The position numbers were made by a program, and so were the translations under genes. This document shows, piece after piece, positions 5,229-43,202 of a stretch of DNA of 43,202 nt (position 1 is its first letter; the number at the start of each line of letters is the position of its first letter). The notes under the pieces are model-generated. The model was not told the origin of the DNA. It saw only the letters and a list, made by a program, of their open reading frames with translations, and ran no database searches. Source of the DNA: Boothiomyces macroporosus. Lineage: Eukaryota > Chytridiomycota > Chytridiomycetes > Rhizophydiales > Terramycetaceae. Location of the stretch: positions 1-43,202 of the forward strand of contig JADGKB010000111.1 in NCBI GenBank assembly GCA_027604185.1, given 5' to 3'.

Positions 5229-6826
5229 ATGATACTATATTTCTTGATACAGTTGTATTCGACTCAATTAGTTATAGAAAGTCAGTTTAAAGCAAAGAAT
5301 TGCGCGGGACCACCAGATACGATTTATGGATTCAATGTACCTGATGTTACTGCTTATGCAAGCTCGTCAAACTATACCTGGCCAACGTTCTGGACTTTTC
5401 ATGCTTCTCAAGCAACAATTGGGTCTTGTGGTAACTTGGCAGTCTCGATTCCTGGTTCTTGTTGTATAGAATCCTTGGATTACCCTGACTCTGCTCCTTA
5501 CAATAGTGGAATTCCTAAGCTCTATGTTGACAAAAATAGCGTGAATGATGTAGTAATGCCAAGTGTGGATGGAACCCAGTATTGCTATGTAGAAGCTAGT
5601 GATTTCAACGATTATTCATCTCTATTTGGCTATCGATTTGTTTACCTTTTACCAAATGGAGATAGCTGTATTGATAATACGTTCAAATGCAATAATGGTG
5701 TATTAAAGATTTATAATGGTACTGGATGTCAAGGGTCAGTTAAAACTATTACACTTACTACCACATCAACTCCATATGTTGGTAAATCGAATTAATATAG
5801 GTTTGGCTGGTAGTATAAATGCTCAATTAATAACTATTACTCAGGGTAATTTGATTGTATCTTGGGTGGTTGATTTGCCTTGGAAATATGTCATTGCTCA
5901 TTGGAACGGTGTTGGAATAGTGTGTGCGATATTCTTTTTTTTAGGAATGATAATTGGACTGTCGCTGTTTGTCAAGGATATATTGTATCTAACAAAAACC
6001 AAAGATTTTGCTCCGTCAAAGTTATTGGCAGTATGTGCGAAACTCTTTTGGTTCTTGTATGTGCTGGTAAGTTTTCTGTACTGGGCAGTCTTGTTTCCTA
6101 CTACAGAGGTTGTAGCGCAGTTTAGTGAAGTTGTGGCTGTATCGCTGGCTATTGCTTCCATCTTGTCTGTATTCAGTTCGCTCTACATCTTGTTTTCTCT
6201 CTTTCCATCGCTCAAACTGCCATTCAAAGTCGCTGGCTATGTCTTTATTTTGCTGCTCCACTTTGGCTTATATGGAAGCATGTACTACAATTATTACTTT
6301 AATGGCGGTGACAATAACATTTACTATTCCAGTGATTGGGCTAGTTTATCCGTATCGCTTAATCAGTGGTACAATTATTACTTGTATTGGTAATTATTAC
6401 TCAATTAGGATACTGTGGATGTTTGTATTTGACACTTTTGTTCCAGTAACTGTTGGGCTGCGCATAATCTCACTCAAGAATTCCAAAAACTTTATCGAAG
6501 CAATTCCCCTCCTATTGCAGCACAACCAAAAGTTGATTTATTGGATTCTCGGCCAGGTACTCGGATTCATCTTTTACTACATCATTAGTTTCATAAAGTT
6601 CAATACTTATCTATGTGGTAATGACTTGATGTACTTGAACATGTCTGCTTTTCTCACTTTTTGCCTGATCATGCATGGTGTATTCACTGATTTGATTATT
6701 GAAATTATTATCAATTTGACCAAACAGAATTACACCAATAGTCCGTTGAAGGTAAAGGATACGAAGAGAGGGAAACCTGTAACGAGCGAGCCAACTTCAC
6801 CTTCTGGAACTATGGAGTTGTTGTAG
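5229..6826 (+). CDS. Seven-helix protein with cysteine-rich ectodomain (copy 1)
   Basis: Exons 5229-5781, 5801-6389 and 6409-6826, separated by two 19-nt introns; spliced product 519 aa. I chose the ATG at 5229, which starts a signal-like segment (MILYFLIQLYSTQLVIES). The ectodomain (to about residue 220) has the pattern C-x-GPPDT...SCGN...SCC...YC...LPNG-x-SCIDN...C...GC. Seven hydrophobic helices and a basic/Ser/Thr tail follow. The protein aligns along its whole length with the genes at 23554-25092 and, more weakly, 36955-38397: shared blocks include GPPDT, LPNG-x-CIDN, LF(W)xLY and the GND...Y pair before the last helix. The alignment across both junctions (for example YW-x-x-FVF) supports the introns. 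It is likely a plasma-membrane receptor; ligand and family are unknown to me. Confidence 0.75.
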
Positions 6827-6985
6827 GAATATATTTTTTTGAATCTTTATCTTTAACTCTATTATCTAACCTTGTAGTATTTTAACAGTATAGTCTATTT
6901 GATCCGTGCTATCATCTAGTTTTTAGTATTATTCTGAAACTCTAAAGTAATTTTAAACATGTATTTCTACCTCAATAGATATTTT

Positions 6986-7150
6986 CATAATAGAGATACT
7001 CATAATAGAGGTACTCATAATAAGGGTTCTAATAATAGAGATCCCCATAATAAGGATTCTCATAATAGAGATACTCATAATAGAGATACTCATAATAAGG
7101 GTTCTAATAATAGAGATCCCCATAATAAGGATTCTCATAATAGAGATACT
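6986..7150. repeat. 15-bp minisatellite with 75-bp higher-order repeat
   Basis: Eleven tandem 15-bp units of the type CATAATAGAGATACT. Five variant units form a 75-bp block that is repeated a second time, so the array grew by copying blocks of five. It lies about 95 bp upstream of the SF3B1 start codon. Although the array is open in some frames (HNRDT-like pentapeptides on plus), nothing suggests that it is translated. Confidence 0.9.
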
Positions 7151-7245
7151 CATGGTAAACAGGTCGGTAAGAGAGAATATCTAAAGCCACAGTTAGGGTT
7201 GAGGTTACTAATTAAGAGATTCAAACTTTTTTTGTTGATCAGAAA

Positions 7246-10200
7246 ATGGACTACAACAATATTTATGAATACGACACAGAGCTTCCCAATGAAAAGGAAT
7301 TGAAAAAGAAGCTGAGCTCATACTCAATGCCCGCGGATATCCAGCAGGATATTCTCAACGAAAAGGAAGAGACAGGTAACAATTACTAACAAGATTACAT
7401 GCAAATAAGACAAGAAGAAAAGCAACTGCGGGAAAATGATTACCAGAAACAGAGACTCAACCGCCAACTATCGCCAGAGCGAGTGGATGCTTTTAAACGA
7501 GAAAGCGAAGGAAAGAGCTACAAGCAAGTAATGAAAGAAAGAGAAGAAGAGTTTGAAAAAAGAAGAGAAAGAAAAAGACAATTGGATCAAGTAAATGTTC
7601 CTTCAGGTGGAGGCAGATGGGATCAGAAACCTGGCAGCGATTGGGAAACTGATGAACCAAAATCAAAAGGGAGATGGGATCAACCAACACCTGTAGGCCA
7701 GTATGGAGAAACACCTAAAGGTCAATATGGAGAAACACCTAAAGGTCAATATGGAGAAACCCCTAAAAAGAAATCGAGATGGGATGTGTCTGATACCCCT
7801 GTACAACAAACCCCAACTCAACAGACACCTAGGGAACAACGATACATGTCTGATGAAGAATTGAACCAAATGTTTCCTCCTGGTTACGAAATATTGGAGC
7901 CGCCTGCTAATTACCAGCCAATTAGAACACCTGCTAGAAAGCTACAACAGACGCCAATGAGACAAGATGGATTCGCAATGCAAGAAGATACAAAGTATGA
8001 AACGCCTCCTGAAATCCCTGGTGTTCAAGGGCTGGAGTTCTTTAAAAATGAAGATGCGCAATATTTTGGAAAGTTGATGGACAATAAGGATGACATGGAA
8101 TTGTCAATTGAAGAATTAAAGGAACGTAAAGTAATGAGATTGCTTTTAAAAATTAAAAATGGATCTCCTCAAGTACGAAGAGTTGCTCTAAGACAAATCA
8201 CTGATGGGGCTAGATTATTAGGAGCAGGACCGATTTTCAATCATATACTACCATTGCTAATGTCTCCTACTATTGAAGAACAAGAGAGACACATGTTGGT
8301 TAAAGTCATTGATAGAGTCATGTACAAACTAGACGATCTAGTGCGTCCATACTGCCACAAAATACTTGTAGTAATTGAACCAATGTTGATCGATACTGAT
8401 TATTATGCAAGAATTGAAGGAAGAGAAATCATTAGTAATTTAGCTAAAGCAGCTGGTCTTGCAACTATGATTGCTACAATGAGACCAGATATCGATCATG
8501 AAGATGAATATGTTAGAAACACTACTTCAAGAGCGTTTGCTGTCGTTGCTTCTGCTTTAGGTAAGTTTTATAATCCTTGAGGATTATTTTGATGGGTATT
8601 AACAATAGGTATCCCTGCACTTGTTCCCTTTTTGAAAGCCGTATGTAAATCTAAAAAATCTTGGCAGGCTAGACACACTGGAACAAAGATTGTGCAGCAG
8701 ATTGCTATTTTATTGGGGTGTGCTGTACTGCCTCATTTGAAATCACTAGTAGATGCTATTGGAAATGGGCTAGTTGATGAGCAACCAAAAGTCAGGACAA
8801 TGACTGCTTTGGCTATATCTGCTTTGGCTGAAGCTGCTTCTCCTTATGGTATTGAATCATTCCAATCTGTTTTACAAAATCTCATGGCTGGTATCAAGCA
8901 ACATAGAGGTAAAAGTTTGGCTGCGTTCTTTAAAGCAATCGGTAATTATTAGTTAATCAAGGTTTCATAATCCCATTATTTGATGCTACTTCTGCCAACG
9001 CCTATACCAAGAGCATTATGAAACATTTAACTGCTCAATTCGAGACACCAGACGAAGAAATGAAAAAGATTGTGCTTAAAGTAGTATCTCAATGTGTATC
9101 TACTGAACTGGATCCTGCATTTATCAAGAACGAGATCTTGCCAAAATATTTCCGGTATTTCTGGATTAGAAGAATGGCGCTAGACAGAAGAAATTACAAG
9201 CAAGTGGTGGAAACAACTGCACAAATCGCCCAAAAAGTTTCAGTTTCAGAGATTCTTGGAAGGATTATTGAAGATTTAAAAGATGAAAGTGAGCCATTCC
9301 GTAAAATGACAATGGAAACAATTGAGGAAATTGTTAAAAATTTGGGATCTGCGGATATAGATGATCGAATGGTTGAAGTACTATTGGACGGTGTATTGTA
9401 TGCATTCCAAGAACAAACTGCTGAAGACGACGGAATTTTAAATGGCTTTGGTACAATTGTAAACTCTTTGGGTCTTCGCTGTAAGCAATACCTACCTCAA
9501 ATCTGCTCTACCATCTTGTGGCGATTAAACAACAAATCAGCCAAAGTTCGTCAACAAGCAGCTGATTTAATATCTAAAATTGCTACTGTAATGAAGCAAT
9601 GTGGCGAAGAAAAACTTATGGGACAATTAGGTGTTGTTCTTTTCGAATATCTTGGTGAAGAGTACCCAGAAGTATTAGGAAGCATCATCAAAGCATTGAA
9701 ATCTATTGTAAATGTCATTGGAATGTCGAGTATGACTCCTCCAATCAAAGATTTGTTGCCTCGAATGACACCAATTCTAAAAAACAGACACGAAAAAGTT
9801 CAAGAGCATTGGTAAATATTTATTAATTGTAGTATTGATCTAGTGGGTAGAATTGCAGACAGAGGTGCTGAATTTGTGTCTGCTAGGGAATGGATGCGTA
9901 TTTGTTTCGAATTGCTGGATATGTTGCATGCGCACAAGAAATCTATTCGAAGAGCAGCAGTGAATACCTTTGGGTATATCGCCAAGGCAATTGGTCCTCA
10001 AGATGTTTTGGCTACATTATTGAACAATCTTAAAGTACAAGAGCGTCAAAACAGAGTGTGTACAACTGTTGCTATTGCAATTGTCGCTGAAACTTGTTCA
10101 CCGTTCACTGTTCTTCCAGCTCTAATGAATGAATACAGAGTTCCAGAGCTTAATGTTCAAAACGGTTGCTTGAAAGCTCTTTCTTTTTTGTTTGAATACA

Positions 10201-10643
10201 TTGGTGAAATGGGTAAAGACTATATCTGGGCTGTGTCTACATTGTTGGAAGATGCTCTTATGGATAGAGATTTAGTGCATCGACAGACTGCATGTGCTAC
10301 AGTCAAGCATATGGCATTAGGAGTAGTAGGGTTGGGTTGTGAAGATGCCATTACACACATGTTTAATCTAATCTGGCCAAACATTTTCGAAACTTCACCG
10401 CATGTGGTCAATGCAGTTATGGATGCATTAGAAGGATGCAGAGTTGCACTTGGCCCAGCAATTATTCTAAGTTATTGTTTACAAGGCTTATTCCATCCAG
10501 CAAGAAGAGTTCGTGAAATGTACTGGAAAGTTTACAACACTGTTTACATTGGTAGTCAAGACGCTCTAGTCCCATACTTTCCCAAGATTGAGAGCGACGG
10601 TAGGAACCAGTATGAAAGATGGGAGCTCGAGTATGTCATTTAA
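7246..10643 (+). CDS. SF3B1: Splicing factor 3B subunit 1 (SF3b155)
   Basis: U2 snRNP subunit that clamps the branch-point/U2 duplex. Exons 7246-7375, 7394-8560, 8609-8941, 8962-9811 and 9833-10643; introns 18, 48, 20 and 21 nt; product 1096 aa (human about 1300). The N-terminal region has SPERVDAF, three RWD-type U2AF-ligand motifs (about residues 118, 136 and 172) with TP dipeptides and a GQYGETPK triplet repeat; then [15 protein letters not shown] and IRTPARKL, and HEAT repeats from about 270 to the C-terminus ([10 protein letters not shown]). Branch-point-region residues known from human cancer mutations are kept: YVRNTT, RHTG-x-K and the Lys700 equivalent (QPKVRT, about residue 493). The N-terminal 18-nt intron rests on weaker homology than the others. 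The upstream limit (ATG 7246) is the first in-frame ATG. Confidence 0.95.
8561..8608 (+). other. 48-nt intron with internal hairpin in SF3B1
   Basis: The only intron in the window longer than 22 nt. It has GTAAGT at its 5' end and TTAACAATAG at its 3' end. Bases 8570-8587 form a perfect 7-bp stem (ATAATCC/GGATTAT) with a TTGA loop. Splicing here restores ...[16 protein letters not shown], which matches SF3B1 of other eukaryotes. Confidence 0.85.
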
Positions 10644-14757: not shown

Positions 14758-16039
14758 ATGGACTGGGACGGTAAATACAACTAAATATAGGTCCTAGAGA
14801 GATGATGACTAGCACAGATAGCAGTTCTGACGATGAGTCGAGCGAATCTGTTGTATCGGTGGATGGCAACCAGATCGGTACGCAAATGATACCGTTGGCT
14901 AACAACACTTGGAATGGGGAACACTCTCGTTCTATAAAAAGAGTGTGTCTCAGCCTAGGTAAATGTCCGTAACATTAGGCTTTCCATCAGTACACACTAC
15001 TGTAAAGAGATCGCTCGTTCTTGAAAGCAATACTATCATATCTGACGAAGAATTTGATGAATCAATCCCAAGCTCCGTATTTTCTGTTTCGCCTAGTGAT
15101 GAAGAAGCCTACCAGCAAGAAATAAATGGCGATGTTACTGATAATTCATCTGACGGCGGTAGAGTTTCTGAAAAGTCCAAGTTGGATTGCAAAAAGAAAT
15201 CCAATGGATCAAGAGAACTACCAGTTCAAGCGACAAAAAGCAATCCGCCGAAACCAATTCAAGGTGGTAGATCAGTCTCAAAAGAGTTGTTATCAGCCCT
15301 TAGCCCTGAAATGAACGCGAAAATTGAAGAGCAAAAGGCAAGGTCAATCGAAGGCTTTTTAGATTGGAAAGTAGAGTTACCGCAATACTTTGGTAACCAC
15401 TTTGGTTTGCTTTCTCAAGTTTTTCGTTTAAACCTCAACACTCTAGTGAAGGGGGAGTATTGGTTTGGTTCTGACTTTATCATGGATTGCAATCAAGATA
15501 AAGCACCGAAAGATGCTACCTTTGTTGGATTGATCCTGTCCGAAGGAGCTTCAGAAAAAAAGTATTTGGTAATCACTGGTCGTAAAAAAGTAGAATTGAA
15601 AGAAGGCTACTTTGAAGCAATAACTGATATTCTTACAATTAAGGTGTACGATGACGGTGAATTGGCATTGTATAACAAGGGAAAACCTTCCTTCCTAAAG
15701 GTATGTGCAAGTCCTCCAGATTTGTTTTTCAACTATGATTCAGATTTAATCTTTGTTGGAATCATTACTTCTGATAAAGTTTTCAAGGTTAATGTCTTGG
15801 GGTGTGATGTCGAATTCCAACTGGATGTTTTTGAAAATGAATGCCAAGTTTTGTACATTGACCACCTGTCAAAGTTGCAAAAAATCTATCCAGTAAGAGC
15901 AGTGGTTTTAAATGTTCTATCTGAAAGACTGGCAATGATGGATTTCAACTATTCTTATGCTTGCAGATCTGATGGTAAATATAAACCAAAGCTAATTGAC
16001 GTTCTCATTCCAGCAGGAGCAAACCCGTTCTACTTTTAA
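14758..16039 (+). CDS. Unknown cytosolic/nuclear protein with acidic N-terminus
   Basis: Exons 14758-14770 (13 bases), 14791-14958 and 14979-16039, with two 20-nt introns; 413 aa. The first intron contains ACTAA and the second GTAAC before TAG. The N-terminal 150 residues are rich in Ser, Asp and Glu (DSSSDDESSES) and look disordered. The C-terminal 250 residues, from about IEGFLDWKVELPQ, appear folded, with alternating beta-like segments and conserved-looking NPFYF at the end. I do not recognise the fold. The start exon encodes only MDWDG; a start at 14802 inside exon 2 is also possible, so the first intron could instead be in the 5' UTR. Confidence 0.65.
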
Positions 16040-16691: not shown

Positions 16692-19600
16692 ATGAAGAGG
16701 GTCCCAACAGATATCCTTAGTTTGATTGCAAATTCATGGATTACGCCTGAAAGCAAAAAGGCAGCATCTGGAGAAATAGATAGTGATGTGTGTTTGTATT
16801 AACCTAGCCTAACGTAGTCCTCCCTGAGACGTCCAAGGAATTGATGCCTACTGTGGAGAAATTCTTTGGTAATATTAGAAAGGACATTCAAAGGGATGCG
16901 ACGGTGAATCTTGCTGTACACATGGTTGAGCCGTACAAGATTGATTTGTAAGCTATACTCATTTTAGAGTGTTGTTGGCTTGCCTACAGTTGATTATAGT
17001 CTTTATTAGTAGTATTAAACCAATGCTGATTGCACAGGTAATTCAATTCTGATATAGTTTCTACTATATCTCGATCCTACCTACACGGGAAGTATCTGGT
17101 TTGGCAGCGTGTACTGCATTACTGTTTTACTTGTCGTTAGTGTGATATTAAAACCGCTGCTCGATTCTTTATGCGGTTCGCTTCTGTCAAAAATGGAATG
17201 TCGATTTTGGAACATCAGCTATCTGATAATTTACACAAAGATTTTAAACTTTAGTAGCACGAGTCGCTTGGTAATACAAATTAATTCCAGAAATACGACA
17301 TGGGAAATATTATGAATTTATTTAGTAGAGACCTAATGCGATTACTGGAAGGTTTAAAGATCATTCAAAATGGTTTCTACCCGATCTTTCTCATCTTTGT
17401 CAACTTTGCATTCGTTTACAGTTTGCTAGGAGTAACTGCTGTGTACTCTGCCCTGTTTTACTTTCTCACAATCATTCCAGTTGTGCTATTGAATTTCACC
17501 AACACAAAATACACTACTTCAAAAAACATCTTGCTCGACACCAGAGTAAATCTACTGCGTGAAATATTAAAAAGTAATTCATCACTGACTCAGACATCAA
17601 AAATATCAAATTTTGCAACATAGAAAACTATTTCTCCAAAGCACTTCTTGCTAACGTTGATCAATGTGTAAAAATTGGAAAGCGGATTTACAAAGTCAGC
17701 AGATTGCAAATGACATTTACAAAAACCATCAGCACAGTCCTTACCGGTCTTACATTTATTGTTTATAGTCTCCTTGGAAATACTGTGTCGCCTGCTATTA
17801 TATTTCCCACTTACATGTACTTGGACGAAATATGTAACCAGTTTAGTACGTTGCAGTTTCTGTTCACGAATGTTCTGAATACCTATGAAGCCTACCAAAT
17901 TGCTAAAGACTTTGTGTTGGCGGAAGAAAAAGGGTCGACTAGCCATACTTCTGAAGATCCTGATGTTGCTTTAGAGCTTGAAAAAGTGACTTTGAAGTGG
18001 AGCGACTCGAAATATGTGAAGATGGCTCACGATAGAAAGCTGAAAGAGATGAGATATATTTCCAAAGTAAAATTGGAGAAAATGGAGTACGCTGAAGACA
18101 AGAACACATTTGAATTGCAAAACTTGAATGTAACTATCAAGAAAGGTGCTCTGGTAGGAATCGTTGGTACTGTTGGTGCAGGAAAAAGCACATTATTTTC
18201 TGGGTTGGTGGGTGAACTTTCCAATATCTCTGGAAAGGTAACTAAGCTTAATACCAGGTAACAATCAACGGAGAAATAGCATACTTTACCCAAGAGCCAT
18301 GGATAATGAGTGATGATATCAAATCAAATATCGCCTTTGGGCGAGATGTCGACTTTGACAGGCTGGAGAAGGTAGTCAAGTCGTGTGGAATGGTCAAGGA
18401 CTTGAATGCCATGAAAGATGGGGTTTACACCAAATTAGGCGAAAGCGGAATTAACTTGTCCGGCGGTCAGAAAGCCAGAGTAGCGCTCGCCCGATGCCTC
18501 TACTCTGATGCAGACATCTTCCTGCTGGACGATCCGCTTGCGGCACTTGATGCTTATGTTGGTAGACAAGTGTTTGAAAATGCAATCAAAAAAGAACTCT
18601 CGAACAAAACAGTGCTTCTTGCCACTCATCAGCTGCAGTACATGCAACAAATGGACCACATAATTGTCCTTGACCAATGCAAAGTTGCTGAAAGCGGATC
18701 TTACGAAGATTTAATCGCGAAAAAAGGAGTGTTCCATTCGATGATGGCTCAATTCCATACCGAGGATGCTAGAACAGCTACTGTTATTCAAGAAACAGAG
18801 CAGTTGAGTGCACCACTTGATAAAAAACCAGAAAATATCGTCGAGTTTGTCAAAAAGGAAAAAAAGCAAACAGTAAATTTACGAATAATAATAGGGGAAT
18901 ATTCCATGGTCACTGTATGGTAAAGTATTCAAAGGAATCAACACCAAAGTATGGTTCCCGATATTTGGGGTTCTCTTTATTTTGAACTTTGCAGTGGATT
19001 TCTTAGGGCTATTGGTTATAACATGGTGGGCTGACGACAACACCAGAAATTCGTATTACGAAAGGTTGTTACTCGCAACTACGATTGGTAGGTCGGTCGT
19101 ATTTTGTAAGTTGATTTAATTTTAGATATTCTGAATGTCTTCTGGTTTTTATCAGGTGTCGACAACTACAAGTTCTATTTTATCCAAACTTATGAATCAA
19201 TCGTTCAAGCCCCGCTTTATTTTCATGAAGAAACTCCTATTGGCAGGATTTTAACACGATTCGGGATGGATATGAAGGCTTTGGATCATGGCATTTTTGT
19301 AGAGACGTATATTGCTATATCGTTCACATTGTCTTTTCTAGGAAAGAGCGTATTTATCTGCTTGGCCAACCCCTTCCTCGTAGGTAGAAAGATGTTAATT
19401 TAGTATTGCTATTGATTGCGTATTCCATAATAATCCATATTAGAAAAGTGTATGATGGAGCGAATTTAGAATTTATAAGATATTACAATTTATATGATTC
19501 GTCCGTAGATACTTTTGCTGTTGAAACATTGTCAGGATTAACTGCTATAGGCACTTTTCCATCTGCCACCAAATTATTTAACGAACGGTTCTACCAAATT

Positions 19601-20769
19601 TTCGACAAATTGGGAGGTTGGATTGCATTGGTACGATACAACAATTCATGGTATGAGTTTAGAGTATCTATGTTGAATTCTCTCATTACTATTAGTGTAA
19701 TTGCAAGCGCACTTTTTTTCAATCAACACACCACCTATTTTAGCGCACTAATTGGGCTTGCGTTAACACAAGCAGAAAGTTGTACTGCACTACTACTTTT
19801 TTTAATTCTGGGTATAGCGAGCGGTAAAGCTAGTGTAATTAATGTTTAAAGTTAGATGAACTCATTCCAAAGAATTATAGAGTATATCAATGAGACGCCA
19901 AAAGAAGGGGCAATGGAGCTTCCAACTGATCCAAAAGATAGATCTTGGCCGTCAGCAGGAGCCGTGGAAATCAATAGCTTGTGCATGGCATACCACAGCA
20001 AACCGGAAAAGCACGTAATCAGCAACCTTTGCATCAGCATCAATCCTGGAGAAAAGATTGGCGTGGTTGGACGAACAGGCTCTGGCAAGTCGACACTTGC
20101 CCTTGCCTTCTTTAGAATCCTGGAGCCAAAGAGCGGAAGCATTGCCGTTGATGGAAGAGGTACTTTTCCCTAACAGCAGACATTGCACAGCTGGGACTAA
20201 AAACACTTCGACGAAGCATCGATATCATTGCGCAGGAAGCAAACATCTTTTCAGGAACAGTCCGTTACAATCTGTGTCTCGACTCGGCGTTTTCCGACGA
20301 AGAGCTGTGGCAAGCGCTGGAGCTGGTGGGGATGAAAGAGTATGTGTCTCAACTCCCAGAGAAGCTGGAACATGAGCTGATTGGTGGCGGAAGCAATCTC
20401 TCTGCTGGACAGAAACAACTATTGTGTCTCGCAAGAGTGCTCATCAAGAAACCCAAAGTATTGGTTTTGGACGAAGCTAGCTCATCGATCGACGGTGAAG
20501 CAGACAAGTTGCTTCAGACTGTTCTTCGCAATACATTAAAAGACACCACCATCATCAGTATCGCCCATAGACTCAACACAATTGCAGATTTCGACCGAGT
20601 TCTAGTCCTCGATCAGGGAGAAATGACAGAGTTTGACTGTCCACATGTGTTACTGCAAGATCCATCTTCCGAGTTTAGCAAGCTGGTTGAATCATCGGGA
20701 GGTGCAAATGCCCAAGCAATTAAAGACATTGCTAGGGCAGCATATCAAAAAGATGGACAGGAGGAATAA
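16692..20769 (+). CDS. ABCC (MRP-type) ABC transporter, 12 exons with 11 microintrons
   Basis: Exons: 16692-16787, 16808-16947, 16968-17037, 17058-17270, 17291-17573, 17594-18237, 18258-18872, 18895-19105, 19126-19383, 19404-19834, 19856-20159, 20180-20769. Introns are 20 nt except 18873-18894 (22) and 19835-19855 (21). The product is 1284 aa, the size of a full ABCC protein without the extra N-terminal TMD0. TMD1 has MGNIMNLFSRDLMRLLEG; NBD1 has Walker A GTVGAGKST (about 459), signature LSGGQ (about 549) and FLLDDPLAALD, with the Asp that ABCC proteins have in place of the catalytic Glu. TMD2 has TPIGRILTRFGMD; NBD2 has GRTGSGKST (about 1059), LSAGQ and VLVLDEASSSID. Expected to export organic anions, conjugates or drugs, at the plasma or vacuolar membrane. 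It would be called a pseudogene without the microintrons. Confidence 0.92.
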
Positions 20770-25092: not shown

Positions 25093-25109
25093 TAGGATTG
25101 TCTATTAGG

Positions 25110-26186: not shown

Positions 26187-27521
26187 TCAACGGCTTACGA
26201 AATCCGCTTCTGCTGGTAGCTGAGCAGACTCTGCTACCGTTTGCATCAAAGACAATGTAGAAACATCAGTGTCGTATACCCCATACCATCCTTAAATCAA
26301 TACAAAAATACCTGGTGCTTCATGATGTGGATCGCCTACCCTACATCTGCCATCCTTTTCATCTCCTGGTCTACTCGCACCACTGTAAACCCAGAAACCA
26401 AATCCTGCATATGCCCCGCCATTCATTCTTAAACTAACAGTTTTTTCAAGCATAGCTTTATAGTACCTGTCCTTGTTTGTTACTGTGTGTTTGCAACTGT
26501 AAATGTCTGGCTTTTGTTTTGCCAGCCAGTTATCTCGAGGAAATCCAAACTCTTCAAGAACCAAAGGTTTGTTGATAGCCCTAGCCCATTTATCTACCTT
26601 TTCAACAACTGCAGTCCCCCATTCAATAGCATGCTTGATATTTGCTTCAGATGGATCCATCATGTCGTATTCACCTCTGTTTTGCACCCAGATGTGGTTG
26701 CAACAATAATCTATTGACGGGCAAGCATGGGCTTGATTAAAGTCTTTTTGATCGAATTTAGACTCTAAACCAACAGTTACCATATGATTGGGAGCAATAG
26801 ACTTGATGAATTTGGCAGTTGATTCACACCATTCAGAAGTTGGAAGTTGAGGCTCGTTGCATAGTTCAAAGCTGAATATAGACGGGTCTTCCTTGTAATA
26901 CACGCCGGTATACTTGTTTTTTCGGTTGAGAATAAATGAAATGTGGTTACGGTAGATTTCTTGACACTTTGGAGCTATTTCTGCGTCAGTGTAGAACCTG
27001 GCTGCATAGTCAATAAAGATGCTCCAATTTTCATCAGATATCGCAACAGTGTAATCGTTTAACTCGGGGGACCATGATGGAGGATATGGGATGGGCTCTC
27101 CAGTTACCCAGTTCACATATTGAGCAAACCCACCAGACCAGTGCCAGAAACTATGTTAACTGAATAGTTACTTGTTGAAGCATAGTACTGCTTTAAAGCC
27201 TCTTTTTGACAGTTCAGCCATGGCATAGTCTAGACCATCCAAGACTTCCTCATTATACACGCCCAAAGACGGCATAAGAGATGGCTTCATCCTAAACGGT
27301 TCGGTATCAGGGCCTTCTGATGCAGCCATGATTCGCAAGTTGTTGATACCGAATCTCTTCATGTGGTCCAAGTCTTGGATTAGCCGATCCCTATCGCCCC
27401 AACTAGAGTCAGACGCTCCAAGATTCATTGCCTGCCAATAATTGGCAGAAAAACAAAAGTAATCTTGGCCTTTCAGTTGAAATCTTGTTCCCTTTGGTTT
27501 AACGTATGAAAAGGTATTCAT
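26187..27521 (-). CDS. GH5 (subfamily-7-like) beta-mannanase without signal peptide
   Basis: Exons 27521-27172, 27150-26312 and 26290-26187, with two 21-nt introns; 430 aa. It resembles fungal and plant endo-1,4-beta-mannanases: RIMAASEGP, LNN-like FNNFWHWSGG (created only by splicing), acid/base Glu216 in FELCNEP, HIWVQN, nucleophile Glu317 in LVLEEFGF, WVYSG, and DPHHEAPG joined by splicing to WYGVYDTD. It would hydrolyse beta-1,4-mannan. The N-terminus (MNTFSYVKPKGTRFQLKGQD) is not a signal peptide, so the enzyme looks cytosolic unless an upstream exon is missing. It is divergent from the large CBM1-mannanase. Confidence 0.88.
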
Positions 27522-28093: not shown

Positions 28094-30879
28094 ATGAAGT
28101 TTGTTCGTGCATTAGCCTGCGGAAAGCTATACGACCAATGCGGAGGTGCTCAGTTTAGTGGCAGCACTTGCTGCGTTGAGGGAACAAAGTGTGTCTATCA
28201 AAACCAATGGTACTCTCAGTGCCAATCAGTGCCTTCTACAACTTGTGGCAATCTCTGGGACAAGTGTGGTGGGATTGGTTTCAACGGCCCAGCTTGTTGT
28301 GTTGCTGGTGCTCAGTGCGTTTATCAAGATCAATACTATTCCCAATGCAAACCATCTTCAAACACCGTTGCTCCAGTTCCACCAACTGCAACTATTCCAC
28401 CAGTAACCACAACTCCGCCTCAACCCAGTCCGACTAGCGTTCCTCAAGTAACAACTATGTCTCCTACAGCTACTCTATTGTCCAACGACCAAATGAACGG
28501 CTTTGTAAAGACCAATGGCGCTTCACTTTCGCTACTTGGAAAGCCCTTCTACTTTGGTGCCACCAATTTCTACAAATTGTTCTATTCGTATGAATCGGAT
28601 TTGCCGTACATCTTTAGCGATGCTGTAGCTATCAAGTCGTCAGTAGTAAGAACTTGGTGTTTTTGTGATGGTGTCAACTGTGACAGCACGTCATACACAA
28701 ACTTTAGTTTCCATTTTACTGATTACGACTCTGTAAACAAACGATTGACATTCAATGATGATGTCAATAGCGGAATAGGAAGGCTTGATCGAGTACTACA
28801 GTATGCAAAGCAATATGGTATCAAGCTAATTTTCACTCTATCAGGCAACTGGGGTGATTTTGGCGGAGTCGATTACTATGTGGAAAAGTTTTCTACCAAT
28901 CAGCAGAAAACCCATTCAGACTTTTATACAAATGCTGCTGTCATTGCCCAGTTCAAAAGCTATATTTCGCATATTTTGAATCGCGTAAATACACTCACTG
29001 GGATTGCTTACAAGGATGATCCGACAATTATGGCATGGGAGCTAGGTAATGAGCTCCGCTGTGTCGGTTCCGGCCAATTTCCTCGTGATTCCAATTGCAA
29101 CGCAGCTACAATTACAAAATGGGTTGATGATATATCCACTTTTATAAAAACCATCGACACTAATCACCTGGTAGCTATTGGCGATGAAGGTTTCTTTCAA
29201 TACAACAACTTTAATCCAAACGCAAATGGATATGCTGGATCGCCTTATAGTAATCTGTGGAATGGCGACAATGATTTTGTTGGGAATGCCAGATTGAAAA
29301 ACATTGACATTCTAACTTTCCATACATATTTCAGTAATTACTCGTTAATTTAGATCAATGGAACACTAAAGGTGATCCAGCGTTCATTCAAAATACTTTG
29401 CAATGGATCAAAGACCACGCAGCAGTGGCTCAATCAGTAGGAAAACCAATTTATGTTGGTGAATATGGTATTGATGTTGCAGACCAGCGAAGAACCGATT
29501 TCCCAATTCTGCAAAAGCAAATTGAGGACTCTAATATCTCTGGGTCATTAATGTGGTTGCTGTTGTCGCACAATGGAACTCTTCCTTGCAGAGAGATTCC
29601 TGATGAAAATGGATTAAATTTTGGATTGTGTGTGTCTGACCCTGATACGGCAAATATCTTGGTTCCTCATGGTACTAGAATGTTCAACAAAGGAGCTATG
29701 GATACCAATGCAAATTTTGTCACTAGAAATGGAATGCAATTAATGTACAATGGCAAACCATTCTACTTTGGAGGCACAAACGTGTACAACCTGTTTATTA
29801 GCTCCAATAGTGATATCGACACAATATTTGCCAATTTGGCTGCTTTGGATGCTAGGGTGGTTCGAACATGGTTATTTGCGGATGGAAAAAACAACGGGGC
29901 TTACTTTAATGGCCAGCAAGTGTGGTTTTTGGACTTTGATTCGCAAGGAAATATTTATTTCAATGACGATACCAATACTGGATTAGGACGGTTGGACTAT
30001 GCGATTCAATCTGCTCAAAAGCATGGAATCAAACTGATTTTTACTCTTGCAAATAACTGGAACGCATTTGGAGGGATCGATGTTTACATTAATGCCCTTC
30101 CAAACGCATCGTCCAGATTACATTCAATGTTCTTTACCAATCCACAAATCAAAGCTCAATTCAAACAGTATATTTCTCATGTATTGAATCGAGTGAACAC
30201 TCTTACCAACATTGCTTACAAGAATGATCCTACAATTATGGCTTTTGAACTTTTGAATGAAGCCAGGTGCACTGGTGGCAACGAAAATACCAATCCAACT
30301 GATCCAAACTGCGGAAAGAATGCTGTTATTACCAAATGGGTGGATGAAATGTCTACGTATATAAAAACAGTTGATGGGAATCATTTGATTGCTGCTGGCG
30401 ATGAGGGATTTTTCAACAGTTACAGCAAATACTCACAGACTTATCCGCTTGCTTATAGCAACATTTATGATGGTTCGGCTGGTGGCGACTTTGAAGCAAC
30501 TGCAAGACTGGAAAACGTTGACATTCTCGGATTGCACTCATACTTTAACCAGTGGATGGATAGCAGTCACTTTAACCAAGATGTATACCTTCATTACACA
30601 CAGTCTTGGATTGCAGATCATCAAGCTGTCGCCAAGGCAGTAAACAAACCAATCTACCTTGGAGAATATGGCATAGGAAATACTGCAATTAGACTAAACA
30701 CTTATCCGATCATTCAAAACTCTCTCGATTCTCTCAACTATGCTGGTTCAGCAACTTGGAACATGAATGCAGGTAATTGCCAACCTCAAAACGAAAATGA
30801 TGATAGTTACTGCTACAATGCAGACGGAATCCAAACATTTATGAAGAATTACGATACAAAGATGAAAAACAAGCAATAA
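28094..30879 (+). CDS. Double-domain GH5 mannanase with two CBM1 modules
   Basis: Exons 28094-29333 and 29354-30879 with a 20-nt intron; 921 aa. Two fungal cellulose-binding CBM1 modules (about 9-44 and 51-86, each with CGG...CC...YSQC) lead through a Pro/Thr linker (87-130) to two GH5 domains (about 135-520 and 545-921). Each starts with the [12 protein letters not shown] motif seen in GH5_7 mannanases. Catalytic Glu pairs are Glu320 (WELGNE) with Glu450 (VGEYG), and Glu716 (FELLNE) with Glu851 (LGEYG); both domains look active. The splice restores HTYFNQW, matching HSYFNQW in the second domain. It probably attacks mannan within cellulose. The N-terminus [10 protein letters not shown] is too short for a normal signal peptide. 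Confidence 0.88.
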
Positions 30880-30880
30880 A

Positions 30881-34551: not shown

Positions 34552-35623
34552 TTACCTTTTTATTGCATAGTGCGACTGAACCTGAGTATCGGCATTGCTC
34601 TGGTTGACTGTAGCCACCATACTCTCTGCTTTTCTCTTGTTTTCATTTGCGGACAAGTCAATGTTTGAGTTGAATAAATTTGACGTGAGCCTCATTCCAT
34701 AAAAGTTTCCAAAGAAATCATTCAAATTGCTTCGTACATTCGCATCAAGTGAGATTAAAATTAAAGCGTTTCCTATCGTGTTGCTCGCTGCTAGGCACAA
34801 GCTAATTCCATCAAACATTACGCTGATGGATTTATGTTTGATTATTTCGTACACCACTTCCACAAAAAATAAACTCCATCCAAACATCTGACACATGCAA
34901 ATCACTATAGATTTTTTAAGCAATAGCTTTTCTTTGACTGTCATTCCATGCTTGCTTTTCTTTCTTCCAAAGTACAAAAGGACTATTTTGGTATAGGCGT
35001 AATTGACAAACCCAGTTACAATAATCACCATTCCTAGGGTAACTGTACTTGCTGGAATGATGAAAGGGTTTGGACTAAACCAATAGAACGCGCACGTAAT
35101 TCTGGACGGATGCAAAACAATAATATCTGTATAGGAACTGGTAATGAAAGGATACAATCCAAACAATGCTGAGAAAATCCAAGCTGCAAAGATCCATATT
35201 TTAGCTTGTCGAAAATCCAGTTCTTTTCCTTTCATTATACAAAGATATCTTTCCATAGTAATCATTAACAAAGATAGAGCTGATGAAGAGCAAAATGTGA
35301 CAGTAATAAATGAAGATATAATACATCCAGCTTGACCTGTATTAGGATAGTTTACCTGTCGCGAATCCATTATAGTACCAATTGATCCCTGCATGTATAA
35401 CAGCGTGCAGACTAAGAAAATAATCAGAAATCGCTAGCGATAATATCAATGCAAATCTTGGAGAGTGTATTTGATCATACGATGACAATAGAATAGGGAA
35501 ATAGAGAATTGAGCTAATCCCACCTGCAATCGCGCAGTATCCATAATAAGCTGTCTGCTCTGGGTCAAATGGGATGATTTCTGTGATATTATTAAAGTTT
35601 ATGAATTCTGGATAGTCAATCAT
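34552..35623 (-). CDS. Class-A-like seven-helix receptor, one microintron
   Basis: Exons 35623-35356 and 35336-34552 with a 19-nt intron; 350 aa. The intron falls between helices 2 and 3, and splicing gives NWYYNGFATGQAGC, matching NWYYGGFASGREGC of the neighbouring paralogue, which has no intron there. Hallmarks: Asp67 (SLAISDYFL), Cys94, Glu118-Arg119-Tyr120 (MERYL), YPSR-like HPSRITC in loop 2, and KKSIVICMCQMFGW in helix 6. The C-terminal tail has KRK and Ser/Asn-rich segments. It is in tandem with the receptor at 33.3 kb, probably from local duplication. Confidence 0.87.
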
Positions 35624-35718: not shown

Positions 35719-35830
35719 CTGGAGTCAGTAATCTGGAGCCAGTTATCAGGAGTCAGTTATCTGGAGCCAGTTATCAGGAGTCACTTATCTGGAGTCAGTT
35801 ATCTGGAGTCAGTTATCTGGAGTCATCAGG
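35719..35830. repeat. 14-bp minisatellite
   Basis: Seven to eight tandem 14-bp units of the type CTGGAGTCAGTTAT, with alternating C/T variants (GAGCCAG and GAGTCAG). It sits in the 350-bp gap between two divergent seven-helix genes (34552-35623 minus and 35978-36942 plus). Confidence 0.9.
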
Positions 35831-35977
35831 AGTGCAAAGGTACACTGTTCCAATATATCAATCAACTTACTTTGTTAATGGTTGCTTATACACTTTCCAG
35901 TATTAACATATATTTGCAACGCTTAGGTTCCTTGAATATCATATTTTCTCCAGTAAACAATTACCTTTCCACCCTAA

Positions 35978-36942
35978 ATGTTGAGCGAAATCACCTTGAC
36001 GGTACTAATATGCTCACTTTTATGCTGCGCAGCAACCATAGTATATATCGTGCAGCAGAATAGTTACCGACACTTGATTATGAAGTGGATTCTTGTATTG
36101 GAAATCGCGAATATCTTGACAGTCGGACAATTAATAGCAGCATACAATAAATACCCAATCGATAATGTAGAGTTGCTGATACAAGGGCTATCGATATTAC
36201 TTGTATTAATACTGTGCTACTATGTGCACTTGAAAACTTTTGAAATATTTTCGATATTGGATAATCGCATCACTCATACAACTGTCAATATCGTGCTATA
36301 TACGGGTGTAGGTGCATTCGTTTTAATCATGTGCTCGTTTCTATTCTTGATGATCACATCAGACAAAATTCTCGAGCCTGTAAGTGACACTTAATGTAGG
36401 TCTTTTCAGTTATATTTGATGTTTTGCTAGTGCTGGTTATATTGATTGTCGATTCGCAAATGTTTTATATCGCATACATGATATACTCTCACATCAAAGC
36501 GCTTACAGAGAGCACTGCCAATAGAATATACCTGCTTATCTTTTCGCTCATTAGCGTTGTAGGGCTGGATGCTGTCGTTTACTACCTGTATTACACGGCG
36601 AAACACTCACCTCCAAGTATAGCGTCTGTTCAGCAGTTTGACATTTCATGTGCACTGGTTAGCATCCACTCTTCAATCTTGTCTATCCTATTCTACCAGT
36701 TTAAAGGGCTTGCACTGCGGAAAAGACGAAATGTAGAAACTGCATCAAATAATGGAGTAGTAACCGTAAAAGAATGGTCAGTAAAAGAAGAACCGAGAGA
36801 AACATCAAACCATTTACAAACGGAATCCAAAAAATCCCCACTAGTCGCTTTATTACAGCAACCAACTAAACCTGACACTAGTGCAAAGCTGGAATTGGGG
36901 CTATTAGGCGAATCAATCAATATTCATTCTCCCACTAAATAA
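35978..36942 (+). CDS. Seven-helix membrane protein, unknown family
   Basis: Exons 35978-36379 and 36400-36942 with a 20-nt intron; 314 aa. The N-terminus is short, and seven hydrophobic helices follow (first ITLTVLICSLLCCAATIVYIV, last CALVSIHSSILSILFYQF), with helix 5 completed only by splicing. The tail of about 85 residues is Lys/Glu/Ser/Thr rich. It lacks the E-R-Y and disulfide hallmarks of the neighbouring class-A-like receptors and the cysteine-rich ectodomain of the other family. It could be a very divergent receptor. It converges, with 12 bases between stops, on the gene at 36955. Confidence 0.7.
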
Positions 36943-36954
36943 TTGTAATATATT

Positions 36955-38397: not shown

Positions 38398-38515
38398 TTG
38401 TTAATAAAAATGATAACAGTATATCTTTGTTATTGTGCTCATTGTTCCGAAACAATGATAAAATACCATTTCAAAAACAAAACCATATCAACAAACTATC
38501 CATAAATGAATATAT

Positions 38516-39649
38516 ATGAGCGATAATTTTGCTGTTACAAAAATAAACGAAAAGCAAGTGTCTTTGCAGACAGAGCAATTGACAAAGCAGATGGAACTAT
38601 TCAATGAAATCACACTTGAGCTTGAAACCACAAAAAAGAAACTTGTAGAGGTGGAAAAGAAGCATTCAGCTTTAATTGACGCCAGTAAAACGCAATTGCA
38701 AGATATATATCACGACTTTAGTGTAAAGGAGGATACACTGAATATGCAAATCAGGAATCTCGAATCAAGACTAAAGAAATCGGAGGCTTCCAATCTGGAA
38801 TTATCAGCTAATTTGAACGAAAGTACTGTGCCATTGCTGCAGCAGATTACCAACCTTGAAATGAAGAATAGGGAACTATCCCACGATCTTTTCAACCTTT
38901 CAAAGGAACTTTTAGACTCTGGTAAAGTAAAAGAGGAACTCAAAGTGCTGCAAGTACAAATTAAATCATTACAAGACGAATTGGAATTAAAAGAAAACAG
39001 TGTCAGTGAATTAGCTTTGCAAATCTCTAGTTACGAGAAACATGTATTGGAAAAAGAAGAGAAAATCAATGAACTTGTCAATACAATTGCAAAAATACAA
39101 GATGAAAAGGAAGGGCTGATAAAGGAAAAGGAAAAGATACTAGAGCAGCATAAATTGGCACTAGAGAGTCAGCAATCTCAGAGTTCAATAAATTCAGACA
39201 AGGACGAAGAAGTAAAGACAGAAAAGAAAAACAGGGAGCAATTGCGAATAGAGATTCAGCAGGAAAGAGAATCATCTGCTTCGGTACATGTAATTAATTC
39301 TAGAGCCCTACAACTCCAAGAAATACTTTGCTGTTGGTTGGTCAGCTTCAAACACAGCTTAAACAAACAAAATCAAGATACCAGCTGCTAGAAGTTCAGT
39401 TCCAACAGTTGCAACAAGAACTGGATCAGCACAAATCGATAATAAACGAAACGGATATCTACAAGACTCGCCTATCTGATATAGAAAAAGAAAATGAAGA
39501 CTTGAAGAAAAAGTAGTTTGATTTAACCTAGATTTGATTTACTATTAATTATGGTTGGCGAGAAAGAAGAAAGAATTGGCGAGTTGGAAAATGATATTAT
39601 TGATATGAAACAAGTCTTTCAACAGCAGTTGAATGAAAAGTACAAATAA
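38516..39649 (+). CDS. TMF1: TMF/Sgm1-like Golgi coiled-coil protein (intact copy)
   Basis: Exons 38516-39283, 39304-39512 and 39532-39649, with introns of 20 and 19 nt; 364 aa, almost entirely coiled coil (Lys/Glu/Leu heptads). After splicing, the C-terminal 100 residues follow the layout of the TMF1 'TATA element modulatory factor' C-terminal domain: LLLVGQLQTQLKQ, QLQQELDQH, RLSDIEKENEDLKKK, then LLLIMVGEKEERIGELENDI, matching the YGEK-x-EE-x-EEL-x-x-D motif. TMF proteins act at the Golgi as Rab6-binding tethers. The protein is shorter than animal TMF1. Most of its 3' part is duplicated at 40688-41744. It converges on the thaumatin-like gene with 13 bases between them. Confidence 0.65.
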
Positions 39650-39662
39650 ATGGACATTATGT

Positions 39663-40687
39663 TTATTCATCACAGTCGTCACTTGCATCGGTTTCTATTG
39701 GACTGTCGGAAGTTGTAGTTGGGCTTGGACTGTTTGTTGATGATGATATTGTAACGATATCAGTTGTTACCAAAGGGATTTGCAAAGTGCTGGTTTGAAC
39801 TAAACTAGTTGTTTCTGGGGATAAAGTAGTGGCAATAATAATGGTAGTCCTTGATGCAACAATGGATGTTGTACCGGTCGGGTCAAGTGCTTTGGTAGAT
39901 TCTGCAGCCTGAGATGTAGTTGGATGAGGAATTACAGTGTCTGGTCCACCACCTTGACTTTCTGACGAACCAACAATTGAGCTTTTACCTGGACAAAAAG
40001 AGATGGTGTACTCTACCATATTGGTTGCTTTTTCTGCATTGAACGGATCAGCACCTTGTACGAAATTGCTACAAACAAAAGTGCTTGATTTGTCATCATA
40101 TGGGTACACGTATGCAGTAGGACAGGTTTCCTTTATCCATTTTAAATGAGGAAGTACATGGTTGATCCAATTTGGGTTGATAAACGTGCAGTCTTGGGTA
40201 ACAGCAGGAACCTTGATTCCAATACTGTTCCAGTTTTGACACCCACAACAACCTTCATTTGAATGAGCTTTGTCTTGGTAACAAGATGGTAGCCCATTAG
40301 AACAGCCAAATAAATCAGCAAGTTTAACTCCATTATTTGGTGCTGTTAAAGTGGTTGAGCATTTATCAGTCCCACAAGCTTTTTCAGGGCTAAAGTATCC
40401 TAAAAGCTTTCCACAATGAAGGTCGTTTGATGGATCAAACCCAGGTGTTTGAGATGGAATGCCGCATTTCAGACCTGCTTGACAGTCCGAGTCTTTTGCG
40501 CATTTTGGAGATTTGTTATCACCGGAAACCCATACTTGGAACGGAGTGGGTGGTTCCAAGTTCCAGCTACAAGCACCTAAATCAGGGTGTTTAGGCGTTT
40601 GGCTTCCGGGGTTGGTGCAAAAGTATGGATCGGAGGGTTTTAGTAAAGAGTCTGGCACATTGGCACTCATTTCCATTGGAACAGAGA
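39663..40687 (-). pseudogene. Thaumatin-like protein, 5'-truncated duplicate
   Basis: Identical in frame to the last exon of the gene at 41758-43202 apart from one Asp/Gly change near the C-terminus. It is cut at the duplication junction (40687), so the signal peptide, the first half of the thaumatin fold and two introns are absent. An internal Met (40676, MEMSANV) opens a 337-codon frame, but the product would lack half the fold. It is presumably non-functional unless the duplication is an assembly artefact. Confidence 0.8.
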
Positions 40688-41744
40688 GGAACTATTCAAT
40701 GAAATCACACTTGAGCTTGAAACCACAAAACAGAAACTTGTAGAGGTGGAAAAGAAGCATTCAGCTTTAATTGACGCCAGTAAAACGCAATTGCAAGATA
40801 TATATCACGACTTTAGTGTAAAGGAGGATACACTGAATATGCAAATCAGGAATCTCGAATCAAGACTAAAGAAATCGGAGGCTTCCAATCTGGAATTATC
40901 AGCTAATTTGAACGAAAGTACTGTGCCATTGCTGCAGCAGATTACCAACCTTGAAATGAAGAATAGGGAACTATCCCACGATCTTTTCAACCTTTCAAAG
41001 GAACTTTTAGACTCTGGTAAAGTAAAAGAGGAAATCAAAGTGCTGCAAGTACAAATTAAATCATTACAAGACGAATTGGAATTAAAAGAAAAGAGTGTCA
41101 GTGAATTAGCTTTGCAAATCTCTAGTTACGAGAAACATGTATTGGAAAAAGAAGAGAAAATCAATGAACTTGTCAATACAATTGCAAAAATACAAGATGA
41201 AAGGGAAGGGCTGATAAAGGAAAAGGAAAAGATACTAGAGCAGCATAAATTGGCACTAGAGAGTCAGCAATCTCAGAGTTCAATAAATTCAGACAAGGAC
41301 GAAGAAGTAAAGACAGAAAAGAAAAACAGGGAGCAACTGCGAATAGAGATTCAGCAGGAAAGAGAATCATCTGCTTCGGTACATGTAGTTAATTCTAGAG
41401 CCCTACAACTCCAAGAAATACTTTGCTGTTGGTTGGTCAGCTTCAAACACAGCTTAAACAGACAAAATCAAGATACCAGCTGCTAGAAGTTCAGTTCCAA
41501 CAGTTGCAACAAGAACTGGATCAGCACAAATCGATAATAAACGAAACAGATATCTACAAGACTCGCCTATCTGATATAGAAAAAGAAAATGAAGACTTGA
41601 AGAAAAAGTAGTTTGATTTAACCTAGATTTGATTTACTATTAATTATGGTTGGCGAGAAAGAAGAAAGAATTGGCGAGTTGGAAAATGATATTATTGATA
41701 TGAAACAAGTCTTTCAACAGCAGTTGAATGAAAAGTACAAATAA
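40688..41744 (+). pseudogene. TMF-like coiled-coil gene, 5'-truncated duplicate
   Basis: Copies the TMF-like gene from codon 26 onward (exons 40688-41378, 41399-41607 and 41627-41744), with both microintrons kept. The original start codon and first 25 codons are missing. The frame stays open upstream to 40647 without an ATG, and the first in-frame Met is the one in TLNMQIRN. All frames are still open, which fits a recent event. Differences from the intact copy after splicing: four amino-acid changes, three silent changes and one base inside the first intron. Confidence 0.8.
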
Positions 41745-41757
41745 ATGGACATTATGT

Positions 41758-43202
41758 TTATTCATCACAGTCGTCACTTGCACCGGTTTCTATTGGACTG
41801 TCGGAAGTTGTAGTTGGGCTTGGACTGTTTGTTGATGATGATATTGTAACGATATCAGTTGTTACCAAAGGGATTTGCAAAGTGCTGGTTTGAACTAAAC
41901 TAGTTGTTTCTGGGGATAAAGTAGTGGCAATAATAATGGTAGTCCTTGATGCAACAATGGATGTTGTACCGGTCGGGTCAAGTGCTTTGGTAGATTCTGC
42001 AGCCTGAGATGTAGTTGGATGAGGAATTACAGTGTCTGGTCCACCACCTTGACTTTCTGACGAACCAACAATTGAGCTTTTACCTGGACAAAAAGAGATG
42101 GTGTACTCTACCATATTGGTTGCTTTTTCTGCATTGAACGGATCAGCACCTTGTACGAAATTGCTACAAACAAAAGTGCTTGATTTGTCATCATATGGGT
42201 ACACGTATGCAGTAGGACAGGTTTCCTTTATCCATTTTAAATGAGGAAGTACATGGTTGATCCAATTTGGGTTGATAAACGTGCAGTCTTGGGTAACAGC
42301 AGGAACCTTGATTCCAATACTGTTCCAGTTTTGACACCCACAACAACCTTCATTTGAATGAGCTTTGTCTTGGTAACAAGATGGTAGCCCATTAGAACAG
42401 CCAAATAAATCAGCAAGTTTAACTCCATTATTTGGTGCTGTTAAAGTGGTTGAGCATTTATCAGTCCCACAAGCTTTTTCAGGGCTAAAGTATCCTAAAA
42501 GCTTTCCACAATGAAGGTCGTTTGATGGATCAAACCCAGGTGTTTGAGATGGAATGCCGCATTTCAGACCTGCTTGACAGTCCGAGTCTTTTGCGCATTT
42601 TGGAGATTTGTTATCACCGGAAACCCATACTTGGAACGGAGTGGGTGGTTCCAAGTTCCAGCTACAAGCACCTAAATCAGGGTGTTTAGGCGTTTGGCTT
42701 CCGGGGTTGGTGCAAAAGTATGGATCGGAGGGTTTTAGTAAAGAGTCTGGCACATTGGCACTCATTTCCATTGGAACAGAGAAACCTGGTATTAATTAAA
42801 CTTACCATCAATCAAAGAAACATCGTAAAAGTCGACGTCAGTTCTAGCCAAAGTGAATTCAGCCTTGGCAGTTTGAGGACCTCTGTTTAGACCAGTCGCA
42901 TCACAAGTCTCTCCAGTGCAACCTGCAAGTTAGCTGTAATGTACCTTCGATATTACCACTCCACACAGGACCGTTATTGTTGGAGAATGGAAAAGTAAGA
43001 GTGTTTGTTTGCCCTGGTTGTAGCAAAGTTGGCCCACTCAATTTCGGAGCGACATAGAAGCACACCTTGTTCTTTGTGTTGCATGAACCACCATCAAGAC
43101 AATCGGCGTCAGAGTTGCATTGGTTCAAGCCAGCTTTGAAACCAATAGCACCAGGGATAAAATTAATGTTTACTGGTGCAGCGCAGTTGTTTACAACTTT
43201 TA
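41758..43202 (-). CDS. Thaumatin-like protein with Cys-rich inserts and Ser/Thr-rich tail (5' end outside window)
   Basis: Exons 43202-42945 (partial), 42922-42806 and 42785-41758, with introns of 22 and 20 nt. It begins VVNNCAAPVNINF at the window edge. Spliced blocks match the thaumatin/PR-5 family: W-x-GNIEGCTGETC, KAEFTLARTDVDFYDVSLIDGFSVPMEM (here split in two quoted pieces by the splice at DG), then CGTDKC, CYQDKA...CCGC and YVYPYDDKSSTFVC...YTISFCPG. Two unusual inserts with the pattern C-x-x-D-x-DC-x-x-G-x-x-C occur, one in exon 1 and one in exon 3. A Ser/Thr/Pro-rich tail of about 100 residues ends in DDCDE, without a GPI signal. It is likely secreted, acting on beta-glucan or other wall material. 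One of the duplicated pair; this copy keeps its 5' exons. Confidence 0.85.

Follow-up and report, generated by a model that had tools for sequence, protein, structure and literature searches.

Whether a fungus can carry spliceosomal introns of about 20 nucleotides (nt) as its ordinary class is the question raised by a 43,202-nt stretch of the draft genome of Boothiomyces macroporosus, here called the window (C111:1-43202). This organism is a soil saprotroph and a true fungus (Chytridiomycota, Rhizophydiales, Terramycetaceae); its assembly amounts to 15.2 Mb in 216 contigs. A sequence-only reading of the window had listed 28 distinct introns of 18-22 nt, mode 20, in eleven genes, and gene-by-gene reading agrees with it, giving 30 introns (29 distinct, mode 20) in 12 genes. 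The one sequence seen twice belongs to a tandemly duplicated gene. The lengths are 18 nt (1 intron), 19 nt (6), 20 nt (17), 21 nt (4) and 22 nt (2). As had been claimed, the introns begin with GT, mostly GTA (29/30, with a single GTG), and end in AG, mostly TAG (20) or CAG (7), with AAG in 3; the outermost coordinates of the earlier reading, 5782 and 42944, are both intron ends. To judge from the sequence, these are almost certainly U2-type (major-spliceosome) introns shrunk to about 20 nt, which would make up the normal class in this chytrid.

The gene richest in such introns encodes an ABCC transporter (16692..20769, plus strand; 12 exons, 1284 amino acids). Its first six introns are 20 nt each (16788-16807, 16948-16967, 17038-17057, 17271-17290, 17574-17593 and 18238-18257), followed by five at 18873-18894 (22 nt), 19106-19125 (20), 19384-19403 (20), 19835-19855 (21) and 20160-20179 (20). 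With all eleven removed, a single open frame of 1284 codons runs from ATG to stop. The product was aligned with 113 homologs of 900-1700 residues drawn from P0123-P0240, and a joint was scored as gapless within 6 residues. Eight joints were gapless in at least 91% of the homologs covering them (96/101, 107/112, 111/113, 104/110, 101/109, 101/110, 110/113 and 111/113). The public ABCC protein P0121 shares nine of the eleven joints.

Similar support is found in the gene for the splicing factor SF3B1 (7246..10643, plus strand; 1096 amino acids), where four introns are read: 7376-7393 (18 nt, uncertain), 8561-8608 (48), 8942-8961 (20) and 9812-9832 (21). In an alignment of 119 homologs (P0002-P0120), scored within 10 residues of each joint, the 48-nt and 20-nt introns left gapless joints in 119/119 and the 21-nt intron in 117/119. 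The earlier statement that segments of 18-22 nt explain every frame break therefore holds for nearly all of them, one break in SF3B1 being due to the 48-nt intron, the sole longer intron (8561-8608, plus strand) backed by homology. This intron holds a perfect 7-bp hairpin, which would shift its effective length toward 30 nt; the fold is no more stable than those of shuffled sequences (z -0.01). The public SF3B1 model (P0001) cuts three of the four introns, the 48-nt one included. Its N-terminus, longer by 118 residues, is fused to a repeat array and to part of the membrane-protein gene that lies upstream. The model is 7 residues shorter at the first intron, where it seems to cut 39 nt rather than 18; over the remaining 1,089 residues the two proteins do not differ. 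In all, public gene models already remove 12 of the 15 introns checked (ABCC 9/11, SF3B1 3/4).

Pfam domains run across joints in five further genes of the window. For example, the GH5 gene (26187..27521, minus strand; introns 27171-27151 and 26311-26291, both 21 nt) has a PF00150 match at residues 35-325 that spans the first joint (residue 117), the second (396) lying outside. In the CBM1-GH5 gene, which has two GH5 stretches (28094..30879, plus strand; intron 29334-29353, 20 nt), PF00150 at residues 227-468 runs across the joint at residue 413, and in a Rhodopsin-family seven-transmembrane receptor (34552..35623, minus strand; intron 35355-35337, 19 nt) PF00001 at residues 46-279 runs across the joint at residue 89. 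PF12325 at residues 268-360 of the first TMF1-like copy (38516..39649, plus strand; introns 39284-39303, 20 nt, and 39513-39531, 19 nt) spans the second joint (326), the first (256) falling outside. The thaumatin-like gene (41758..43202, minus strand; introns 42944-42923, 22 nt, and 42805-42786, 20 nt) runs off the contig end; PF00314 covers residues 87-333 of its joined product and so spans the second joint (124), with the first (85) just ahead of the domain.

Outside the window, nine joined products, picked for their many introns or a role in splicing, were given to Pfam. Joints fell within domains in 5/5 cases for a kinesin motor, 5/6 for an acyl transferase and 3/3 for a formyltransferase. 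The other six (dehydrogenase-like, WD40, ISY1, SF1, U2AF-large-like and CWC25) were recognised by family only, their joints not being counted.

Intron lengths across the sampled genome

The sample outside the window consisted of 20 tiles of 10 kb, taken at one fixed offset from the largest contigs (C1-C20), and was thus non-random. Together with the window and four small nuclear RNA (snRNA) loci, 255,855 nt were decoded on both strands, less than 2% of the assembly. Simple joining of pairs of open reading frames had been tried in the window; it listed the introns but, owing to the flood of overlapping open frames, did not distinguish them from decoys, and Viterbi decoding took its place.

Two decoders were used. 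The first relied on codon usage and GT..AG ends alone, allowed 10-150 nt without length preference or splice motifs, and was compared with seven decoy dinucleotide pairs. With the real GT..AG ends, 101 of its introns measured 18-23 nt (2, 13, 45, 23, 11 and 7 at 18, 19, 20, 21, 22 and 23 nt); the decoys gave 9-18 in this range. At greater lengths the calls were 33 against 47-59 (31-50 nt), 43 against 57-79 (51-100 nt) and 39 against 31-52 (101-150 nt). The second used donor and acceptor motifs learned from the first set, allowed 12-400 nt uniformly and was compared with four decoys. Of its 227 introns, 164 fell at 18-23 nt (1, 36, 79, 33, 10 and 5 at the successive lengths), with 0 at 16, 17 and 24-27 nt. 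The decoys gave 4/84, 18/106, 1/73 and 0/80 in that range, the 18 coming from the decoy that retained GT..AG. Longer calls numbered 4 at 30-50 nt, 14 at 51-100, 16 at 101-200 and 25 at 201-400, with decoys at 7-11, 17-26, 16-26 and 23-25; no size class between 30 and 400 nt exceeds the decoys.

The class is not peculiar to the window. It is present in all 20 tiles, with 3-11 introns per tile, and the expectation that a plot of intron lengths would make it the normal class was confirmed in these 256 kb of the 15.2 Mb, where a single peak, holding 164/227 introns at 18-23 nt, stands below 30 nt. In a separate run, motifs taken from only 28 introns of the window were applied to the 20 tiles, with a codon table trained on all sequence, tiles included; of 191 introns, 123 measured 18-23 nt, including 59 of exactly 20 nt, and a reversed-motif decoy gave 3/84. 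When only introns of 17-24 nt were allowed, 65 of the 106 complete gene models of at least 200 amino acids contained introns, 155 in total or 1.19 per kb of coding sequence. The model of the SF1 gene includes one intron of 24 nt.

A draft assembly in 216 contigs could hold frame breaks that are only assembly or sequencing errors, or that mark pseudogenes. The insertions keep to one narrow length and share splice motifs, and they occur in every one of the 20 tiles as well as in conserved genes, among them SF3B1 and a kinesin, which leaves this explanation practically no chance.

Intron anatomy and the splicing machinery

Counts in this section refer to the 164 introns of the second decoder unless the 101 of the motif-free first decoder are named. 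Donors are GTA in 161 and GTT in 3, the commonest start being GTAATT (37); acceptors are TAG (119), CAG (37) and AAG (8), and the G+C content is 28%. The likely branch A is mostly found at nt 14 with 6 nt after it (40 introns) or 5 (35), or at nt 15 with 5 (30) or 6 (23), 128/164 in all. The count was redone on the motif-free set because the second decoder scores the last 11 nt of an intron; an A at nt 14 or 15 followed by 5 or 6 nt was found there in 65/101, against 2/63 in four decoy sets. The lengths of 19, 20 and 21 nt are thus the sum of one nearly fixed spacing of 14 or 15 and another of 5 or 6. The branch motifs include TTAAT (48), CTAAT (25), TTAAC (19) and CTAAC (15), with G in third place in 12. 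The branch-like TAA(C/T) that the sequence-only reading saw shortly before the acceptor recurs in this larger set, 115/164 having YTRAY with its A sixth or seventh from the end. An in-frame stop was present in all 32 frame-assigned introns whose length is a multiple of three, but the decoder favours such introns. In a check of selection for stops, matches to the motifs left uncalled in 157,479 nt of exon were 6 at 21 nt and 5 at 18 nt against 4 at 19 nt and 3 at 20 nt, which is no more than suggestive.

Uniform length is also what would be expected of introners, that is, recent copies of an intron-generating element in place of shrunken ordinary introns. Only one sequence is repeated among the 164, in the tandemly duplicated gene, and likeness between introns is otherwise limited to the splice motifs, which makes an introner origin very improbable.

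Most parts of the machinery looked for were detected. Among the snRNAs, U2 (two genes, 142.2 and 135.4 bits), U4 (58.0) and U6 (62.2) scored above the Rfam cut-offs. The U1 match begins with ATACTTACCTG, U2 contains GTGTAGTA and the opposite strand of the U6 locus has ACAGAGA; these are the usual pairing sequences. On the protein side, six splicing families were searched for in the genome, and SF3b1 (72.1 bits), SF1 (114.6), Isy1 (56.8), CWC25 (70.2) and Yju2 (223.4) exceeded the Pfam cut-offs. The model of the U2AF-large-like gene itself includes four ultrashort introns (19-20 nt), and its joined product has three RRM stretches. Residues 1-14 of CWC25 match the human homolog in PDB chain 5yzg_X without a difference. 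CWC25 occurs at two places with equal score (C49:3194-3481 and C100:4789-5076), and two equal RRM matches lie on C20; both pairs may reflect duplication or haplotypes left unmerged. In the ISY1 gene, either two candidate introns of 20 nt stand one base apart, possibly as twin introns, or there is a single one of about 40 nt (L029 1259-1299).

The snRNAs and splicing proteins also bear on the idea that the segments are removed without a spliceosome, by RNA editing, translational bypass or DNA elimination. A length of 20 nt is far below that of reported fungal introns: those of Cryptococcus, averaging 63 bp, are termed relatively short in the available part of a 644-genome fungal survey (PMC8476143). 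Against this stand the GT..AG ends, the near-fixed branch-like A, the encoded machinery and the splicing of 15-21 nt introns in other lineages, as given in the accessible parts of two accounts (PMC10245619, PMC9505925), and only the slightest likelihood is left to removal of that kind. On the evidence given, introners, assembly error and non-spliceosomal removal were all rejected.

If the segments are ordinary introns of the major spliceosome shrunk to this size, U1 would read the donor, and SF1, then U2, would read the branch site. The intron would be recognised as one unit, and the first AG 5-6 nt past the branch A would serve as 3' splice site. Donor, branch site and acceptor almost touch, so that no polypyrimidine tract fits between the last two; the U2AF-large-like protein would therefore act elsewhere (e.g., ahead of the branch site), serve only the minority of introns that are longer, or have no role here. 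It is somewhat more probable than the contrary that an essentially conventional fungal spliceosome, with SF1, the U2AF-large-like protein and a CWC25 of conserved N-terminus, handles the entire gene complement close to the steric lower limit, along a rigid ruler of 19-21 nt, with 13-14 nt from donor G to branch A and then 5-6 nt to the end.

Several observations weigh against a normal class of shrunken U2-type introns. Known families had been said to match across each junction; this is true of most joints in SF3B1, ABCC and the Pfam domains, but the 18-nt SF3B1 intron (7376-7393), in a poorly conserved stretch, was gapless in 0/119 homologs. This intron is uncertain for that reason and because the public model is 7 residues shorter there, as a 39-nt cut would give. 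Three ABCC joints were gapless in only 65/110, 15/104 and 5/102 homologs, and clean multi-joint domain support came from only three of the nine products joined outside the window. No YTRAY stood at the expected place in 45/164 introns. The U1 match, at 68.8 bits, is narrowly below its cut-off of 69.5, and the U2AF-large match reached 230.7 bits against a whole-protein cut-off of 310.3, the same family also being matched below cut-off in two bacterial control genomes. The genome search found no U5 RNA, a miss that does not show absence; it found no U12 RNA either, and since the control was also silent everywhere this miss does not show absence. Finally, 59 of the 227 calls of the second decoder were 30-400 nt long, the decoys giving equally many, and when 25-130 nt was allowed six strands (L007+, L017+, L019+, L021-, L025+ and window+; no decoy run) gained 15-39 nats.

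Such gains imply that some longer introns are real, and they raise the possibility that the class exists without being the normal one, longer introns being missed by a motif model trained on short ones. The homology-backed 48-nt intron of SF3B1 points in this direction, as do a candidate 82-nt intron, likely real, at L007 7943-8024, where the strand gains 29.9 nats with longer introns allowed, and the gains of at least 15 nats on five other strands. The motif-free decoder, which used codons only, is likewise in excess near 20 nt only, and a hidden majority of longer introns is accordingly rated very unlikely.

Comparison with known ultrashort introns

The comparisons that follow draw on the accessible parts of the papers cited. 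Introns are 16-17 nt in mikrocytids, 18-21 nt in chlorarachniophyte nucleomorphs and 15-16 nt in heterotrich ciliates (PMC10245619). The nucleomorphs have nearly the same length range as Boothiomyces, also as normal class, but a nucleomorph is the relic nucleus of an endosymbiont, whereas the introns described here lie in a fungal assembly of 15.2 Mb. Mikrocytids share the narrow length range and conserved motifs. From these intracellular parasites no more than 17-19 spliceosomal proteins were identified, together with the RNAs U2, U4 and U6 (PMC10245619); in contrast, Boothiomyces also yields a U1 match and matches to all six splicing families searched (U2AF-large below cut-off). Microsporidia, as fungal relatives, likewise have relatively short introns, but these are few and go with reduced spliceosomes (PMC10245619), unlike the numerous introns found here.

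The ciliates provide two further cases. In Stentor (15-16 nt) the branch A is the 10th or 11th nt and the commonest intron start is GUAAUU (PMC9505925), so that both the near-fixed branch A and the donor resemble those of Boothiomyces. Altered branching factors have been proposed as an adaptation to such introns, the N-terminal plug of CWC25 and the N-terminus of ISY1 being reported as not conserved (PMC9505925). In Boothiomyces the first 14 residues of CWC25 are conserved, as noted above; the comparison rests on CWC25 because the ISY1 N-terminus could not be modelled across the two adjoining candidate introns. Paramecium and Nyctotherus also have a very short class as a rule, though these ciliates' introns, at about 25 nt, are some 5 nt longer, and in Paramecium introns with a length divisible by three are rich in in-frame stops (PMC5014332). 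SMU1 and RBM17 reportedly assist the splicing of introns with short spacing in human cells (PMC12862383).

Within the fungi, no ultrashort class was found in the parts seen of the 644-genome survey (PMC8476143), and no chytrid intron length class in those of four other papers (PMC5364385, PMC11649378, PMC6572847 and PMC13391722). The earlier remark that no fungal-like genome was known with this class as the rule stands among the literature matches listed, in the portions available, where such introns are described neither for Boothiomyces nor for another fungus; preprints and most subscription journals lay outside that coverage. The introns themselves are already annotated, since public models cut 12 of the 15 checked, and it is the ultrashort class across a fungal genome that seems undescribed. 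Boothiomyces is apparently the first fungus with ultrashort introns as its normal class. If its essentially conventional spliceosome does work on the rigid ruler, ultrashort introns do not call for a spliceosome that is reduced or remodelled, and one of the ordinary fungal kind can act on substrates under 20 nt. The lower size limit of splicing would become testable in a fungus that is related to the yeasts commonly used as models and has recognisable snRNAs and branching factors. Many multi-exon genes would come out broken in chytrid gene catalogues built with a minimum intron above 20 nt.

Other genes and repeats of the window

Four further genes carry ultrashort introns. A protein judged by eye to be a multi-pass membrane protein is encoded at 5229..6826 (plus strand; introns 5782-5800 and 6390-6408, 19 nt each), its joined frame being open to a single stop. 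Genes without a family call are found at 14758..16039 (plus strand; introns 14771-14790 and 14959-14978, 20 nt each) and 22431..23466 (minus strand; intron 22495-22477, 19 nt), and another membrane protein, again called by eye, at 35978..36942 (plus strand; intron 36380-36399, 20 nt).

The second TMF1-like copy (40646..41744, plus strand; start not fixed) has introns at 41379-41398 (20 nt) and 41608-41626 (19 nt). It belongs to a tandem duplication of the TMF1-like and thaumatin-like gene pair (38516-42771, spacing 2095 nt), in which the copies are 100% identical over one reported 300-nt stretch and one intron varies by a single base from copy to copy. The first exons appear to be missing from the thaumatin-like copy at 39663-40676. 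Minisatellites occur at 6974-7176 (15-nt unit, 12 copies) and 35719-35825 (14-nt unit, 7.6 copies).

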